Shown one piece after another: positions 15,962 through 22,814 of a DNA stretch of 64,000 nucleotides. The position numbers and the translations under genes are program-made. Source of the DNA: Frondihabitans sp. PhB188 (GTDB taxonomy: Bacteria > Actinomycetota > Actinomycetes > Actinomycetales > Microbacteriaceae); the NCBI RefSeq assembly GCF_003752365.1, contig NZ_RJUO01000001.1:496001-560000 (forward strand), read 5' to 3'. The notes beneath the pieces were generated by a model. It was not told where the DNA came from, searched no databases, and saw only the letters and a list, made by a program, of their open reading frames with translations. How positions within the stretch are numbered: position 1 is the first letter of the stretch; every line of letters starts with the position of its first letter.

Positions 15962-18076
15962 CTAGGTGTCGATGCGCTCGCGTGCCAGGCCGGCCCCGTC
16001 GATGATGAACTCCTTACGCGGCGCCACATCGTTGCCCATCAGCAGCTCGAACACCCGGCCGGCGTTCTCGGCGTCTTCGACCTTCACGCGGCGGAGCATG
16101 CGGTTGGTGCGGTCCATCGTGGTCGTGGCCAGTTGCTCGGCGTCCATCTCGCCGAGGCCCTTGTAGCGCTGGATCGGATCCTGGTACTTCTTGCCCGACT
16201 TCTTCAGCCCGGCGAGAACACCGTGCAGCTCGGCCTCGGAGTACGTGTAGATGGTCTCGTTCGGCTTCGATCCGGGGTTGATCACGACGACGCGGTGCAA
16301 TGGCGGCACGGCGGCGAAGACGCGGCCGGCCTCGATCATCGGCCTCATGTAGCGGAAGAACAGCGTGAGCAGCAGCGTGCGGATATGCGCGCCGTCGACG
16401 TCGGCGTCGCTCATGATGATGACCTTGCCGTAGCGGGCGACGTCGAGGTCGAACGACCGACCCGATCCGGCGCCGATCACCTGGATGATCGACGCGCACT
16501 CGAGGTTCGACAGCATGTCGCTGACGGACGCCTTCTGCACATTCAGGATCTTGCCGCGGATCGGCAGCAGCGCCTGGTACTCGCTGTTGCGGGCCGCCCG
16601 TGCGGTGCCCAGCGCCGAGTCGCCTTCGACGATGAACAGCTCGCTCGACGACACGTCGCTCGAACGGCAGTCGACGAGCTTCGACGGGAGCGACGACGAC
16701 TCGAGCGCGTTCTTGCGGCGCTGCGTCTCTTTGTGAGCGCGGGCGGCGATGCGCGACTTCATCTCGGTGACGATCTTGTCGAGCACCGCGGCGGCCTGCG
16801 TCTTGTCGTCGCGCTTGGGCGACGCGTAGATCGCGGCCATCTCTCTGGCGACGACGTTCGAGACGATCTGGCGGACGGCGGGGGTTCCGAGCACCTCCTT
16901 GGTCTGGCCCTCGAACTGCGGCTCGGGCAGGCGCACCGTGAGCACGGCGGTGAGACCGGCGAGGATGTCGTCCTTCTCGAGCTTGTCGTTGCCGACCTTC
17001 AAGCGGCGGGCGTTCGACGTGACCTGGTCTTTCAAGAACTTCAGCAGCCCGGCGTCGAAGCCGGTCTGGTGCGAGCCGCCCTTGGGCGTCGAGATGATGT
17101 TGACGAAGCTGCGCGTGACAGTCTCGTAGCCCTCGCCCCAGCGCAGGGCGATGTCGACCTCGCACTCGCGCTTGACGTCGGTCGAGACCATCTGCCCGTG
17201 GTCGTTCAGCACGGGGACGGTCTCGGTGTAGTGCCCGGTGCCCTGCAGGCGCCAGGTGTCGGTGACGGCCTTGTCGGGAGCGAGGAAGTCGACGAACTCC
17301 GAGATGCCGCCCTCGTACGAAAAGACGGACTCGAGGGGCTGATTGCCCTCGGTGTCGGCGGTGGTGACCGGGCGCTCGTCGCGCACGCGAATCGTGAGGC
17401 CGGGAACGAGGAACGCGGTCTGCTGGGCGCGCTTGACGAGGTCGTCGGTGACGAACGCGGCGCCCCTGGTGAAGATCTGCCGGTCGGCCCAGTAGCGGAT
17501 GCGCGTGCCGGTGGCGGCTTTCGGCGCCTTGCCGACGACCCGGAGCACGCTGCCGTTCTCGAACGGCGTGAAGGTCGCGTCGGGTGTGGGCCCGTCGGGG
17601 CCGTCGGCGAAGGTGCCGGGCTCGCCGCGGTGGAACGACATGGCGTGCGTCTTGCCTCCGCGGTCGACCTCGACGTCGAGGCGCTCCGAGAGGGCGTTCA
17701 CGACCGAGGCGCCGACGCCGTGCAGGCCGCCGGATGCCGCGTAGGAGCCGCCGCCGAACTTGCCGCCCGCGTGGAGCTTCGTGAAGACGACCTCGACGCC
17801 CGTGAGGCCGGTCTTCGGCTCGATGTCGACGGGGATCCCGCGGGCGGTGTCGCGGACCTCGACGCTGTCGTCGGCGTGCAGGACCACGTCGATCGACGTT
17901 CCGAAGCCGCCGAGGGCCTCGTCGACCGAGTTGTCGATGATCTCCCACAGACAGTGCATGAGGCCGCGCGAATCGGTCGAGCCGATGTACATGCCCGGGC
18001 GCTTGCGCACCGCCTCCAGACCCTCGAGCACCGACAGGTGACGTGCTTCGTACTGGGACGGCGGGGTGGTTGCCAC
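15962..18076 (-). CDS. parE: DNA topoisomerase IV-type subunit B
   Basis: A 704-residue GyrB/ParE homologue providing the ATPase and TOPRIM domains for the parC product. The N-terminus has RPGMYIGSTD, the ATP-site EIIDNSVDEA and GLHGVGASVVNALS. The TOPRIM part has EGDSALGTA and SDADVDGAHIRTLLLT, and the C-terminus PIQRYKGLGEMDAEQLATTTMD truncated as QRYKGLGEM is the conserved tail motif. GTG at 18076 is used as start, with GGAG five bases upstream. It is convergent with parC and ends 267 bases from it across the repeats. ParE rather than GyrB is inferred from the pairing and the genomic position. Confidence 0.92.
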   Translation of the reverse strand: MATTPPSQYEARHLSVLEGLEAVRKRPGMYIGSTDSRGLMHCLWEIIDNSVDEALGGFGTSIDVVLHADDSVEVRDTARGIPVDIEPKTGLTGVEVVFTKLHAGGKFGGGSYAASGGLHGVGASVVNALSERLDVEVDRGGKTHAMSFHRGEPGTFADGPDGPTPDATFTPFENGSVLRVVGKAPKAATGTRIRYWADRQIFTRGAAFVTDDLVKRAQQTAFLVPGLTIRVRDERPVTTADTEGNQPLESVFSYEGGISEFVDFLAPDKAVTDTWRLQGTGHYTETVPVLNDHGQMVSTDVKRECEVDIALRWGEGYETVTRSFVNIISTPKGGSHQTGFDAGLLKFLKDQVTSNARRLKVGNDKLEKDDILAGLTAVLTVRLPEPQFEGQTKEVLGTPAVRQIVSNVVAREMAAIYASPKRDDKTQAAAVLDKIVTEMKSRIAARAHKETQRRKNALESSSLPSKLVDCRSSDVSSSELFIVEGDSALGTARAARNSEYQALLPIRGKILNVQKASVSDMLSNLECASIIQVIGAGSGRSFDLDVARYGKVIIMSDADVDGAHIRTLLLTLFFRYMRPMIEAGRVFAAVPPLHRVVVINPGSKPNETIYTYSEAELHGVLAGLKKSGKKYQDPIQRYKGLGEMDAEQLATTTMDRTNRMLRRVKVEDAENAGRVFELLMGNDVAPRKEFIIDGAGLARERIDT

Positions 18077-18623: not shown

Positions 18624-19142
18624 CTACCTCGGCGACGACCGGAGAGGCAACCGCACGACCTCGACATCGCGAACACGGCCGTCGTCGAGCACCAGGGTCA
18701 TGAACGTGCATGCCGGCTGGCGGCGCCGGTCGGTCGGCGACCCCGGGTTGAGCATCCGCGTACCCGCCGCTGTCACGGAGTCCCACGGGATGTGGCTGTG
18801 GCCGAAGACGATCACGTCGGCCTCGGGGTACTCCGCGTCGGCGCGCTCCTCCCGGCGGAGCGCGGGGCCGGTCTCGTGGACCACGACAATGCGCGCGCCT
18901 TCGATGTCGGCCGTCGCCACCAGCGGAAGGCGCGGCTCGAACTCCGGCCCATCGTTGTTGCCGCGGACGGCGAGGAGGCGCCTCGATCGCCGCTCGAAGT
19001 CGTCGAGCATCGACAGCTCGACCCAGTCTCCGGCGTGGATCACGACGTCGGCGCTCTCGACGGCCCGCCAGACGGTCTCCGGCAGCTGCTTGGCGCGCTT
19101 GGGAACGTGAGTGTCTGACACGAGGGTCACGCGGGTGGGCAT
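18624..19142 (-). CDS. Metallophosphoesterase, YfcE/MJ0936 type
   Basis: A 172-residue calcineurin-like phosphoesterase with the standard metal ligand blocks: SDTHVP at 9-14, HAGDWV near 37, the GNNDG block near 61 and the closing GHSHIPW near 116 and LNPGS near 132. Small single-domain enzymes of this type hydrolyse phosphodiesters such as bis-pNPP in vitro; the natural substrate is unknown. The ATG at 19142 has TAGCGT six bases before it and no ribosome site, so it is probably leaderless. It is separated by 48 bases from the gatD-like gene upstream of its promoter. Confidence 0.9.
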   Translation of the reverse strand: MPTRVTLVSDTHVPKRAKQLPETVWRAVESADVVIHAGDWVELSMLDDFERRSRRLLAVRGNNDGPEFEPRLPLVATADIEGARIVVVHETGPALRREERADAEYPEADVIVFGHSHIPWDSVTAAGTRMLNPGSPTDRRRQPACTFMTLVLDDGRVRDVEVVRLPLRSSPR

Positions 19143-19190: not shown

Positions 19191-19934
19191 TCACATCGCC
19201 TTGAAGACGTGCTCCAGGTTCGCCGAGATGACCTCGCGCGACTTCGTCGCGTACTCGTCGAGCGTCGCGTGGGCGTCGGCCACGGCGTACGCGCCGCCCG
19301 TGCGAGCGACCGCCGCCGTGAGCACTCGGTCGGTGAGCGCCGGATTGAGGGGCAGCGCCGGCCCCTTCATCTGCGTGCCGAAGGAGGCTCCGCGGATGAC
19401 GCCCTCGCGTCCGTCTCCGTTGCCACCGCCGCTGACGACGGCGCCGAACGGGCTCGCGCCGGCGCCGAGCTCGAAGCGCGTCGCGTGGTCCTCGAAGCCG
19501 AGCAGGTAGAGCGAGCCACCTCCGTAGGGCGTGCTCACCTTGAAGTAGTTGGCACGGCGCTGGGCGCCCCGGTGCGCGCTCGCGTCGAAGAAGCCGAGGC
19601 CCTCGAGGTCGGCGCCCTCTCCGCTGATTCCGCGCGAGAGGATCTCCATGCCGCCGCCGATGGCGACGACAGGGATCCCGGCGTCCGACCAGTCCGAGAG
19701 GAGCTCGCGGAACCGCAGCACATCGGAGTGGATGGCGCGGAGAGTGGACAGCGGGCCGCTGCCGATGAGCACGACGTCGGCCGCCGCGGGAAGCGCGTCT
19801 CCGGGGCGGTGCTCGGTCACGGCCACGTCGAGGCCGCCGCGCCGGGCGCGCTCGGCGAGCGTCACGACGTTGCCGCCGTCGCCCGAGACGCCGAGCTGCT
19901 CGGGATAGAGCTGGAGGATGGTCAGGTCGGTCAT
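19191..19934 (-). CDS. GatD-like glutamine amidotransferase homologue lacking catalytic Cys and His
   Basis: A 247-residue homologue of GatD, the glutaminase half of lipid II isoglutaminyl synthase. The overall fit is clear: MTDLTILQLYPEQLGVSGDG at the start, LEGLGFFD near 110-117, the GFEDH block near 146-150, and a GPALPLNP block near 191-198. Where the family has the nucleophile cysteine (ICGGYQ-type, C94 in S. aureus as I recall) this protein reads AIGGGME with G93. Where the family has the catalytic histidine (GTYLHGP) it reads GTQMKGP with K190. The protein has no cysteine at all. The ATG at 19934 overlaps the murT-like stop as ATGA, so the two are coupled. It should not hydrolyse glutamine; see findings. 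Confidence 0.88.
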   Translation of the reverse strand: MTDLTILQLYPEQLGVSGDGGNVVTLAERARRGGLDVAVTEHRPGDALPAAADVVLIGSGPLSTLRAIHSDVLRFRELLSDWSDAGIPVVAIGGGMEILSRGISGEGADLEGLGFFDASAHRGAQRRANYFKVSTPYGGGSLYLLGFEDHATRFELGAGASPFGAVVSGGGNGDGREGVIRGASFGTQMKGPALPLNPALTDRVLTAAVARTGGAYAVADAHATLDEYATKSREVISANLEHVFKAM

Positions 19935-21190
19935 GCTCGCTTCTCCAGGTCGGGGTAGCCGAGCATCTTGCGCGCGATCATCATCTGCTCGTAGTTCACG
20001 ATGAAGTTCTTCGTCTTGCCCGACGGCGACGGCAGGGCCTTCATCAGGTCGATGGCCTTCTCGATCTGCGGCTCGACGGTGCCGATCGGGATGCCTGCAT
20101 GCTCCAGGCGCAGCGCGATCTGCCAGGCCTTCGCGCCCGAGACCACGTCGACGTGGTCGAGCGACGAGAAGTCGACGTCGTAGATCCACGAGATGTCGGG
20201 GGTGCCCTCGTCGATTGCGAGGAGCACCTGCTCGGGCGCCGTCGCCAGGGCGTCGAGGTTCAGCTGCAGGCTCGCCGCGTTCTTGAACATGACGAACTCG
20301 GCCTCGTCGCTGCCGATCTTCAGGCGCTCACCACGGCCGTAGGCCGGCTTCATCGCGGCGAAGGCCGCGACGGCCTTATGGGAGTCGAACTCGGGGCCGA
20401 GCGCGACGCGGGCGGTCTGGATCGCGGCGGCCGCGTCGACCGCGTAGTGGAGCCCCTTGGCGGGGAGCCGGACGTCGACGGCCTGGTCTCCGAGCGCGAT
20501 GGTGGCGCCGGTGGCGGTCAGCGCGGTGACCTCGGCCTCGGCGGTGAGAGCGCGCGTTCCTGCGCCCTTGTCGTACGCGCTGGCGTTCTGCAGCCCGTGA
20601 GGCGCCGCGGCGACCAGGGCCGGGGACGCGCCGAAGCGGGTGACGTCGAGCGTGGCGCTCTCGAACGGGCCGAGGTACTCGTCGTCGCGGTTGGTGACGA
20701 CGTGCGTGCCCGCGGTGGCGGCCGTGTCGGTCATCATGTCGGCGACGCGCGAGGTCTCGTAGAAGCGGTAGAGCTGGTCGACCTGCACGTTGAGCATGAG
20801 GACCGTCGAGGGGTGCAGATGACCGGAGAGCTCGACGGCGAACGCCTCGTCGACCTCGAGCACGCCGACGTCGGCCTTGAGTCGCCCGAACAGGCTCACC
20901 TCGGAGAGGAGCGCCGACGCGATGCCCTGCGGCAGGTTGGCCCCGGTCGGGTTCGTGAAGACGCGCAGGCCGTGCGAGCGCATGATGTCGGACAGCATGT
21001 GCGTCGTCGTCGACTTGCCGTTCGAGCCGAGCACGAACAGGACGCCCCGGTCGAACTGCTTGGTGACATCCGTGAGGAAGGTCGGGAGCAGCTTGAGGAC
21101 GAGGTAGCCGGGGTACGCCGACCCACCCCCTCGGGCCCTTGCGAGAACGCGGACGAGACGCCCGAGGAGGATGGGGAGAACGTACTTCAA
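19931..21190 (-). CDS. MurT-like Mur ligase (DUF1727 C-terminus), zinc-ribbon cysteines absent
   Basis: A 419-residue Mur-ligase-fold protein. The ATP P-loop is GSNGKSTTT at 55-63, followed by PTGANLPQGI, the LEVDEAF metal/ATP block at 111-117, and the MurT-type C-terminal domain with PDISWIYDVDF at 331-341 and VSGAKAWQIALRLEH. Canonical MurT has a four-cysteine zinc ribbon inserted in the middle domain; here the corresponding stretch (about 185-245) has none, and the whole protein has no cysteine. The usual FRDQLDRYGE motif is altered to VQVDQLYRFYE. The start is TTG at 21190 with AGGA five bases upstream. It is followed by and coupled to the gatD-like gene. It probably acts on the peptidoglycan stem D-Glu, but the donor may not be ammonia. 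Confidence 0.88.
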   Translation of the reverse strand: MKYVLPILLGRLVRVLARARGGGSAYPGYLVLKLLPTFLTDVTKQFDRGVLFVLGSNGKSTTTHMLSDIMRSHGLRVFTNPTGANLPQGIASALLSEVSLFGRLKADVGVLEVDEAFAVELSGHLHPSTVLMLNVQVDQLYRFYETSRVADMMTDTAATAGTHVVTNRDDEYLGPFESATLDVTRFGASPALVAAAPHGLQNASAYDKGAGTRALTAEAEVTALTATGATIALGDQAVDVRLPAKGLHYAVDAAAAIQTARVALGPEFDSHKAVAAFAAMKPAYGRGERLKIGSDEAEFVMFKNAASLQLNLDALATAPEQVLLAIDEGTPDISWIYDVDFSSLDHVDVVSGAKAWQIALRLEHAGIPIGTVEPQIEKAIDLMKALPSPSGKTKNFIVNYEQMMIARKMLGYPDLEKRA

Positions 21191-21229: not shown

Positions 21230-22534
21230 TTATTCGAGGTAGTCGCGGAGGGACTGCGACCGCGACGGGTGGCGCAGCTTGGCCATCGTCTTCGACTCGA
21301 TCTGGCGGATGCGCTCGCGCGTCACTCCGAACGTGTCGCCGATCTGGTCGAGGGTCTTGGGCATCCCGTCGCCGAGCCCGAAGCGCATGCGGATCACGCC
21401 GGCCTCACGCTCGGAGAGGCTGTCGAGCAGCGACTCGAGCTGCTTCTGCAGCATCGTGAAGCCCACGGCGTCGGCGGGCACGACGGCCTCGGTGTCTTCG
21501 ATGAGGTCGCCGAATTCGCTGTCGCCGTCTTCACCGAGCGGGGTGTGCAGCGAGATGGGCTCGCGGCCGTACTTCTGGACCTCGACGACCTTCTCGGGCG
21601 TCATGTCCAGCTCGCGTGACAGCTCTTCGGGGGTGGGCTCGCGGCCGAGGTCCTGCAGCATCTGGCGCTGCACGCGGGCGAGCTTGTTGATGACCTCGAC
21701 CATGTGCACGGGGATGCGGATGGTGCGGGCCTGGTCGGCCATCGCGCGGGTGATGGCCTGGCGGATCCACCACGTGGCGTACGTCGAGAACTTGAAGCCC
21801 TTGGTGTAGTCGAACTTCTCGACCGCGCGGATGAGGCCCAGGTTTCCTTCCTGGATGAGGTCGAGGAACTGCATGCCGCGGCCGGTGTACCGCTTGGCCA
21901 GGCTCACCACGAGTCGGAGGTTGGCGCCGAGCAGGTGGCTCTTGGCGCGCTGGCCGTCGCGGGAGACCCAGCGCAGCTCGCGCTCGAGCTCCTTCGAGAG
22001 GCCCGTCGAGTTGGCCAGCTTGTCGTCGGCGAACAGGCCCGCCTCGATGCGCATGGCGAGCTCGACCTCTTCGGCCGCGTTCAGGAGCGCGACCTTTCCG
22101 ATCTGCTTGAGGTAGTCCTTGACCGGATCGGCGGTGGCGCCGGTGATGGTCGACGAGTAGACGGGGATCTCGTCGTCGTCGTCCTGCGAGATGACGAGGG
22201 CGCCGGTGGGGAGGACCTCGTCGGCGGCCTTCTCGGCGTCGGTGGTCTCCTCGCCGTCGGCCGTCTCGGTGCCGTCCGCGGTCTCGGTCGTCTCGGCGGT
22301 GTCGTCGGCGACGACGACCTCGGGCTCGTCGTCCTCCTCGTCGTCGTCAGCCGACTTGCCGGCAGCCTTGGCCTTGGCGGGCGATGCCTTCGCCTTGGCC
22401 GGTGCCTTCTTGGCAGGAGCCTTCTTCGCAGCGGGCTTCTTGGCGGCGGGGGCGGCGACAGCCGCGTCCTCGGTGGTGATGTCGTCGGTGTCGGTCACGG
22501 CGGCGGCGACGGGGGCTTTGGTGCGAGTAGCCAT
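21230..22534 (-). CDS. sigA: Principal RNA polymerase sigma factor (SigA/RpoD/HrdB)
   Basis: A 434-residue primary sigma-70 factor. The N-terminus (1-110) is a Lys/Ala/Pro-rich, then acidic, low-complexity region with AAKK/PAKK-type repeats. Region 1.2 begins at [15 protein letters not shown]; region 2 holds [39 protein letters not shown], the core-binding and -10 helix (quoted here in words: DLIQEGNLG to TWWIRQAI). Region 4 ends with [23 protein letters not shown] at 22534 is taken because GAAAGG stands at good distance; the in-frame GTG nine bases earlier would overlap that site. It is preceded by a 280-bp region with an AT-rich promoter area. Confidence 0.96.
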
Positions 22535-22814
22535 TGGGTGCACCTTTCACTCGGGCTTCGAAAAGTCGGTGGAGGCCCTGCGCCGTCGGTGGTTCTGCGA
22601 CTGCAAGGCGGGGAGGACGACGACGCTGATCCTGCTTGTCGTCGGCCAGAGAGTTCGGTTTCGGGCAGTTCGGTTCGGGTGACTGTGCCTGCCAAAGCGG
22701 CACAGCAAGGACCCATGTCAAGCCCCGAGGCATTTCACCAAGGGACAAGAAAGGGTCCGTGAGTAATTATTGCACGCCCGAGAGCGACCCGTTTACAAAA
22801 GGGGGCATTCACTG
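22535..22814 (-). promoter_or_regulatory. Long leader and promoter region of sigA
   Basis: 280 bases without a gene. On the minus strand AATAAT at 22766-22771, preceded by TG, is the best -10 candidate, with TTGTAA or TAAACG further upstream. This would give a leader of about 220 nt. A perfect TTGACA at 22716-22721 has no matching -10. No terminator for the MFS gene is visible here. Confidence 0.35.

Follow-up and report, generated by a model that had tools for sequence, protein, structure and literature searches.

What reaction is left to a MurT/GatD pair whose glutaminase half has lost the residues of a working glutaminase? The question is raised by two overlapping genes in a 64,000-nucleotide stretch of the genome of Frondihabitans sp. 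PhB188, family Microbacteriaceae (contig NZ_RJUO01000001.1, positions 496,001 to 560,000; hereafter the window, to which all feature coordinates refer). One gene encodes a MurT-like Mur ligase homologue and the other a GatD-like class I glutaminase homologue without nucleophile cysteine (Cys) and catalytic histidine (His). We argue from sequence comparison that the pair is probably an ATP-dependent amide ligase derived from MurT/GatD, which joins a diamino acid to the alpha-carboxyl of D-glutamate (D-Glu). Group B walls, with their 2-4 cross-link, have been on record since surveys of cell walls in the early 1970s. Searches of the open-access literature, with subscription papers lying outside their reach, returned no description of a Cys-less MurT/GatD pair or of an enzyme that attaches the group B bridge to D-Glu.

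The MurT/GatD-like pair of Frondihabitans

The murT-like gene (19931..21190, reverse strand, TTG start, 419 aa) overlaps the gatD-like gene (19191..19934, reverse strand, 247 aa) in an ATGA. The MurT-like protein matches PF08353 (42.3 bits, cut-off 25) and Streptococcus pneumoniae MurT (6fqb; 8.5e-27), while the GatD-like protein matches PF07685 (49.8 bits, cut-off 27) and Staphylococcus aureus GatD (5n9m; E 1.4e-17). Judged by the homology of both halves and the overlapping genes, the pair is thus a member of the MurT/GatD homologous superfamily. An earlier note on this DNA had read a glycine and a lysine at the two catalytic positions of the GatD-like protein, and the 5n9m alignment bears this out: C94 of S. 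aureus GatD aligns with G93 in AIGGGME (codon 19656..19658, reverse strand) and H189 stands opposite K190 in GTQMKGP (codon 19365..19367, reverse strand). The position of the tyrosine that plugs the ammonia channel (S. pneumoniae Tyr30) is taken by Ser17 (codon 19884..19886, reverse strand). Excerpts of two studies, on which we also rely for the structural roles of the MurT and GatD residues compared here, report that the C94G and C94S changes in S. aureus GatD abolish lipid II amidation (PMC6085368, PMC6113224).

In contrast, the site of the ligase half is kept. The P-loop GSNGKSTT (residues 55-62; 21005..21028, reverse strand) is present, as are K59, N85, E112, D114 and E115, which belong to the P-loop and to the Mg- and acceptor-binding residues. 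The DISWIYD block (20177..20197, reverse strand) opens with D332, the equivalent of S. aureus MurT Asp349 and third member of the proposed triad. As the earlier note had also stated, neither protein contains any Cys, hence the MurT-like protein has no zinc-ribbon tetrad. Compared with MurT/GatD of S. aureus (6gs2, 7q8e) and S. pneumoniae (6fqb), the window pair therefore shares two overlapping genes, homology in both halves, the P-loop, the Mg and acceptor-carboxylate residues and the Asp of DxSWIYD, but differs in lacking the nucleophile Cys, the catalytic His, the ammonia-gate tyrosine and the zinc ribbon. Scores against the NCBIfam equivalog models are far below cut-off (109.3 against 800 bits for the MurT-like protein, 59.7 against 400 and 77 against 450 bits for the GatD-like protein). 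By its sequence the pair thus departs from what defines a lipid II isoglutaminyl synthase, having no GatD Cys, no GatD His and sub-equivalog scores. Alignment-free structure prediction gave low mean pLDDT (predicted local distance difference test) values of 35.3 and 37.8 for the two proteins.

The only MurT_C match in the genome is the window gene, and there is likewise a single match to the GatD profile; three further GATase_3 matches elsewhere are not picked up by the GatD profile at 1e-5. A second, complete pair, which the earlier note had said would count against its reading, is accordingly not found in this genome; complete pairs are present in some relatives and on a Leifsonia plasmid. 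Glycine and lysine occur at the two sites in all four congeners read (L036, L246, L247, L248), and the ratio of nonsynonymous to synonymous substitution rates (dN/dS, NG86) against these four is 0.15-0.19 for the MurT-like and 0.17-0.35 for the GatD-like gene. The latter evolves faster, but with dN/dS well below 1 purifying selection seems to act on both genes, in line with the earlier description of the pair as coupled, intact and selected. Strain-level decay or sequencing error is ruled out by the agreement of the congeners at both sites together with these ratios.

Distribution of Cys-less pairs

To see how far the loss extends, samples of 199 genomes of the family and 297 of the order were used, together with a GatD profile that was built in this analysis and applied to the family genomes. 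MurT_C matches were found in 141 and GatD-profile matches in 168 of the 199 family genomes. Ninety family loci were read, made up of the 30 best by profile and 60 picked mostly as one per genus; 23 keep Cys and His and 67 are without the Cys. All 50 loci read from other families of the order (30 best-scoring and 20 picked) keep both residues, so that none is Cys-less. The loss noticed in this strain is therefore real but clade-wide rather than strain-specific. The proposal that it tracks group B walls would fit its absence from the loci read in other families of the order, and falls short in that some family genomes have only a Cys/His pair or none.

The zinc ribbon behaves differently. The CxxC motifs are absent from the matched MurT region in 42 of the 50 Cys/His-complete pairs of the order and in 19 of the 23 complete family pairs, and the tetrad is described, in the part of the source available, as present in only some Actinobacteria (PMC6085368). 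Since most complete pairs also lack it, its loss is not diagnostic of function, and the earlier suggestion that the missing ribbon cysteines are a sign of new function had to be abandoned. The same excerpt calls murTgatD universal in Actinobacteria (PMC6085368); in contrast, 196 of the 297 order-sample genomes had no MurT_C match, although this profile misses some diverged members.

Residues kept and lost

The residue comparison covered 217 rows, 107 with GatD Cys94 and 110 without, the two classes being defined by that Cys. MurT K59, N85, E112, E115, N134 and D138 are invariant in all 217 rows, and the changes concentrate in GatD at Cys94, Gly95, Gln98, Tyr187, His189 and the channel-plugging tyrosine. 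This gate tyrosine is present in 97% of the 107 Cys-containing rows, but is replaced in the Cys-less clade to which the window pair belongs (clade IV; Asn in 46/60) and in the family members of a second such clade (clade III; His in 10/12). GatD His is present in 105 of the 107 Cys-containing rows and still in 40 of the 60 clade-IV rows, from which it follows that His was lost later than Cys, and repeatedly. MurT position 401 is acidic (Glu or Asp) in 60/60 clade-IV rows and Thr in 99% of the Cys-containing rows; the acidic residue may be a contact for a second amino group.

Repeated origin and a shared chromosomal slot

In the MurT trees the window pair falls in clade IV, which comprises 56 rows, all of this family and all without the Cys, and is nested among Cys-containing actinobacterial pairs; later additions (L232-L235, L246-L250) were assigned to it by motif and stand outside the trees. 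Clade III contains 33 clostridial rows and, at three places, 12 from the family. Forcing all Cys-less pairs into a single clade was rejected in a 57-row tree (p-AU 1.9e-13, approximately unbiased test), which excludes a single origin. Like the window pair, clade III combines an intact MurT site with the loss of both Cys and His, but it differs in its separate origin, its mostly kept CxxC ribbon motifs and its motif TGNALE or THNALE; the MurT triad Asp is found in only 12 of the 50 Cys-less clostridial and family clade-III rows. Small further Cys losses occurred in Clostridia (L223, L224-L227), and L224-L227 form a separate small group (e.g., AVATGYPLLG) near Cys-containing pairs, which marks another loss. 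Four loci from actinobacterial families outside the class (L254-L257), placed by motif only, have the clade-III-like TGNAVELLG or similar, with the gate tyrosine changed to Ala or Gly. One genome (G155) appeared to hold both Cys-less clades, but its two sigA loci and 5% contamination point to a mixed assembly as the probable explanation.

The two clades are also linked by position. In the window a sigA-like principal sigma factor gene, identified by eye (21230..22543, reverse strand), lies directly upstream of the murT-like gene and marks a conserved slot. Of 63 distinct clade-IV loci, 60 have sigA directly upstream in the same orientation, and so have 10 of the 12 clade-III loci of the family, against 0 of 23 Cys-containing family loci and 0 of 122 others, the gap between the matched sigA and pair regions being 8-342 bases. 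The clade-III exceptions are L037 and L068, of which L068 groups with the Eubacterium/Acetobacterium pairs (100/100). As the family clade-III pair is nested among clostridial rows, it was probably acquired; that it occupies the place of the native pair is, to our mind, the best indication of a common function.

Organisms with described walls

Rhodoluna lacicola carries a clade-IV pair (L041) in which Cys is replaced by Ala and His is kept, with one MurT_C match and two GatD-profile matches in a streamlined genome of 1,430,433 bp. Its GatD-like protein is shortened, with whole stretches deleted, which fits a structural role of this half. According to the part of the description at hand, its wall was measured as B2beta with D-Ala-D-Dab, Dab being 2,4-diaminobutyrate (PMC4156110). 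Clavibacter nebraskensis has a clade-IV pair (L054) with both Cys and His replaced by Gly; the excerpted source gives 3,063,596 bp for strain NCPPB 2581 and describes the species complex as B2gamma with Dab (PMC5358740). The Cys-less pair thus occurs in one organism with a measured type B wall and in one taxon described as type B.

There is a single MurT_C match in each of Acetobacterium dehalogenans, a metagenome-assembled genome of A. woodii, and Eubacterium callanderi; at the Cys motif the GatD of these organisms reads VTGTT or VTGTS, and at the His motif TLGP. A. woodii and E. limosum have type B walls. For Eubacterium, one table gives B2alpha along with A types (PMC11382707). Aurantimicrobium minutum, by comparison, has a pair with Cys, His and zinc ribbon all present (L026) in a genome of 1,622,386 bp (PMC4929513). 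R. lacicola and Aurantimicrobium are thus small-genome relatives with the two alternative forms of the pair, and gene inactivation has been published for R. lacicola, which can be modified by natural transformation, and for an Aurantimicrobium species (PMC11577799).

An inverse relation to FemAB

FemAB/FemX proteins (PF02388) build interpeptide branches of the wall from aminoacyl-tRNA, with residue 3 as acceptor in the known cases. PF02388 matches were found in 25 of the 199 family genomes, namely in 13 of the 18 with only a Cys/His pair against 7 of the 140 with only Cys-less pairs (p 1.4e-10), in none of the five with both kinds and in 5 of the 36 with no pair; about 65 of the 140 were read as sequence and the others inferred from profile matches. 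Counted by genus the contrast is 8/9 against 7/60 (p 6e-6), two genera being in both sets. Such an inverse relation is expected if a wall is bridged either by Fem proteins or by means of the Cys-less pair.

Neighbouring genes and a possible diamino acid supply

In one genome (G446; L249:1-5000) the end of sigA at the locus edge is followed by a diaminobutyrate-2-oxoglutarate transaminase gene, murT and a Cys-less gatD, and on the other strand after gatD by an alanine-racemase-like gene and an incomplete second one. The transaminase scores 594.8 bits against TIGR02407 (the EctB profile, cut-off 552.2). The first racemase-like gene scores 164.3 bits against the alr cut-off of 168 and has the pyridoxal-phosphate lysine motif AVKSDAYGHG, while the second is cut by the locus edge and is only weakly similar to the first. 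A transaminase making L-Dab, racemases and a D-Glu-carboxyl ligase would together form a pathway to a D-Dab bridge, which makes G446 a candidate cluster.

Racemase-like genes flank 21 of the 63 clade-IV loci; few other loci had 2 kb downstream, so that their absence there is weak evidence. They lie downstream of gatD, often two in a row, in L050, L053, L069, L070, L078, L081, L082, L086, L087, L095 and others; where there are two, the second may be a partner of the first or a racemase of changed specificity. The Dab transaminase profile was of no use as a wall marker, with all 36 genomes tested matching at E 1e-30 and four passing the cut-off, three of them without a Cys-less pair, though it brought the G446 cluster to light.

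Proposed reaction

We propose that the MurT-like half, like MurT itself, would phosphorylate the alpha-carboxyl of D-Glu in the lipid-linked stem peptide, and that a free amino acid, rather than ammonia, would then attack the acyl phosphate through its amino group. The donor would most likely be a D-diamino acid (D-Dab, D-ornithine or D-lysine, depending on the species), and the product would be the branch through which group B walls are 2-4 cross-linked. Having ceased to hydrolyse glutamine, the GatD-like half may have a structural role, giving shape to the donor entrance at the former ammonia gate. MurC-MurF offer a precedent, in that an amino acid is the nucleophile in their ATP-driven acyl phosphate chemistry, but unlike the window pair they act on UDP (uridine diphosphate)-linked precursors, have an N-terminal UDP domain and need no GatD partner.

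We lean, with some reserve, towards a wider account, in which the pair would be a D-diamino-acid:D-Glu alpha-ligase and the bridge enzyme of group B walls, having arisen at least twice by loss of the glutaminase, in Microbacteriaceae and in a clade shared with Clostridia. The clostridial version would then have moved into Microbacteriaceae and displaced the native pair in the same slot, and some pairs would be clustered with a transaminase and racemases. If so, an old gap, the enzyme that puts the group B bridge on D-Glu, becomes testable, an amidotransferase has become an amino acid ligase by glutaminase loss more than once, and the pair can serve as a genomic marker for wall type. The earlier note had already suggested that the pair no longer supplies ammonia and may instead join an amino acid to the carboxyl of D-Glu that carries the bridge in group B walls. 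That suggestion gains from the restriction within the order, the separate Cys-less clade, the sigA slot, the Dab and racemase-like neighbours and the FemAB relation; its chemistry stays at the level of prediction, and the pair proved not to be universal in the family.

Several observations weigh against this reading, and the first group concerns distribution. The GatD profile found no match in 31 of the 199 family genomes and a weak one in five more, and the MurT profile, run on 25 of these 36, found none in 24 and a contig-edge fragment in one (G035). No MurT was found in 8 of 12 order-sample genomes of genus g78, nor MurT of any kind in the checked genomes of genera g2, g17, g18, g20, g33, g40, g45, g47, g57, g69 and g75 of family f1; in genomes without MurT the wall bridge must be made otherwise. 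A further 18 of the 199 have only a Cys/His pair (nine of them also checked by the MurT profile). The family is described as group B in the part of the source consulted (PMC10978784), and with about 36 of 199 genomes lacking the pair it cannot be the sole route to a bridge. Either the walls of pair-less members are made by another enzyme, perhaps where glycine is the first bridge residue, or the job of the pair is narrower than proposed. Outside the class, Cys-less pairs are present in two actinobacterial families (f55 and f34; L254-L257), and they were found in 35 of 40 clostridial regions read; one of the 40 (L231) had no GatD match. These regions were picked mainly for low profile score, so that the Cys-less share is no frequency. 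The A types listed beside B2alpha for Eubacterium also lower our confidence a little.

The second group concerns the supporting evidence itself. The gate tyrosine is still there in 26 of 38 clostridial Cys-less rows, and clade IV, with MurT Asp332 in 60/60 rows and the GatD His retention given above, keeps more than a long-dead glutaminase needs. E. callanderi has one FemAB gene, the two Acetobacterium genomes having none, and A. minutum, with its Cys/His pair, is without FemAB though two congeners have it. The 64 kb window contains nothing resembling the racemase or Dab transaminase genes of G446, and of the four genomes above the Dab transaminase cut-off only G446 has a Cys-less pair, the other three (G012, G088, G150) having none. 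R. lacicola, with Dab in its wall, scores below that cut-off.

Alternative explanations

The alternative that survives best, though we hold it to be unlikely, is that D-Glu is still amidated, now from free cytoplasmic ammonia, with the GatD-like half as a scaffold only. It would account for the retained Asp332 and His of clade IV, and an excerpt reports that S. aureus MurT/GatD takes free ammonia at pH 8.5 with GatD still needed (PMC6085368). It leaves unexplained, however, why the gate tyrosine is replaced, why Dab transaminase and racemase-like genes lie nearby, why the slot is shared with the Acetobacterium/Eubacterium clade and why FemAB shows an inverse relation. In group B walls, moreover, the D-Glu alpha-carboxyl carries the bridge.

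Rather improbable is a ligase for another donor, which would add glycine or another L-amino acid, as in B1 bridges, or the second residue of a longer bridge. Bridge composition does vary within the family, one genome (G111) has two Cys-less pairs (L066, L067), and the sub-threshold transaminase score of R. lacicola points the same way. Against this stand the D-Ala-D-Dab measured in R. lacicola, where there is one MurT_C match, and once more the transaminase and racemase-like neighbours.

We give little credence to a role in cell-wall recycling or on another carboxyl, that is, an Mpl-like or other Mur-type ligation that forms no cross-bridge link. The Mur ligase fold is versatile and about 36 of the 199 family genomes do without the pair, but with the P-loop already at residue 55 of 419 there is no space for a UDP-binding domain, and both the partner gene and the MurT acceptor-carboxylate residues are retained. 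That the pair is a relic or a non-catalytic scaffold on its way out, as the deletions in R. lacicola GatD and the faster evolution of the GatD-like gene might suggest, is most improbable given dN/dS well below 1, retention in a streamlined 1.43 Mb genome, an invariant ATP site and a slot refilled by a distant homologue.

Further features and pairs

Downstream of the gatD-like gene the window holds a small metallophosphoesterase-like gene, identified by eye (18624..19142, reverse strand), which lies between gatD and a parE-like gene for subunit B of DNA gyrase or topoisomerase IV (15962..18076, reverse strand), the downstream marker of the slot. In five sampled family genomes a Cys/His pair and a Cys-less pair occur together (L008, L017, L021, L023, L028). 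A complete Cys/His murT-gatD, followed by an M15 (VanY-like) peptidase gene, is carried by the Leifsonia shinshuensis plasmid NZ_CP043642.1 (102969-105918; L253:8001-10950), which also bears metal-resistance genes; the genus lies within the group B family. Finally, a very reduced genome of 927303 bp (G013), which we take to be Tropheryma whipplei, has a highly diverged Cys-less pair (L044) behind sigA and beside a racemase-like gene.

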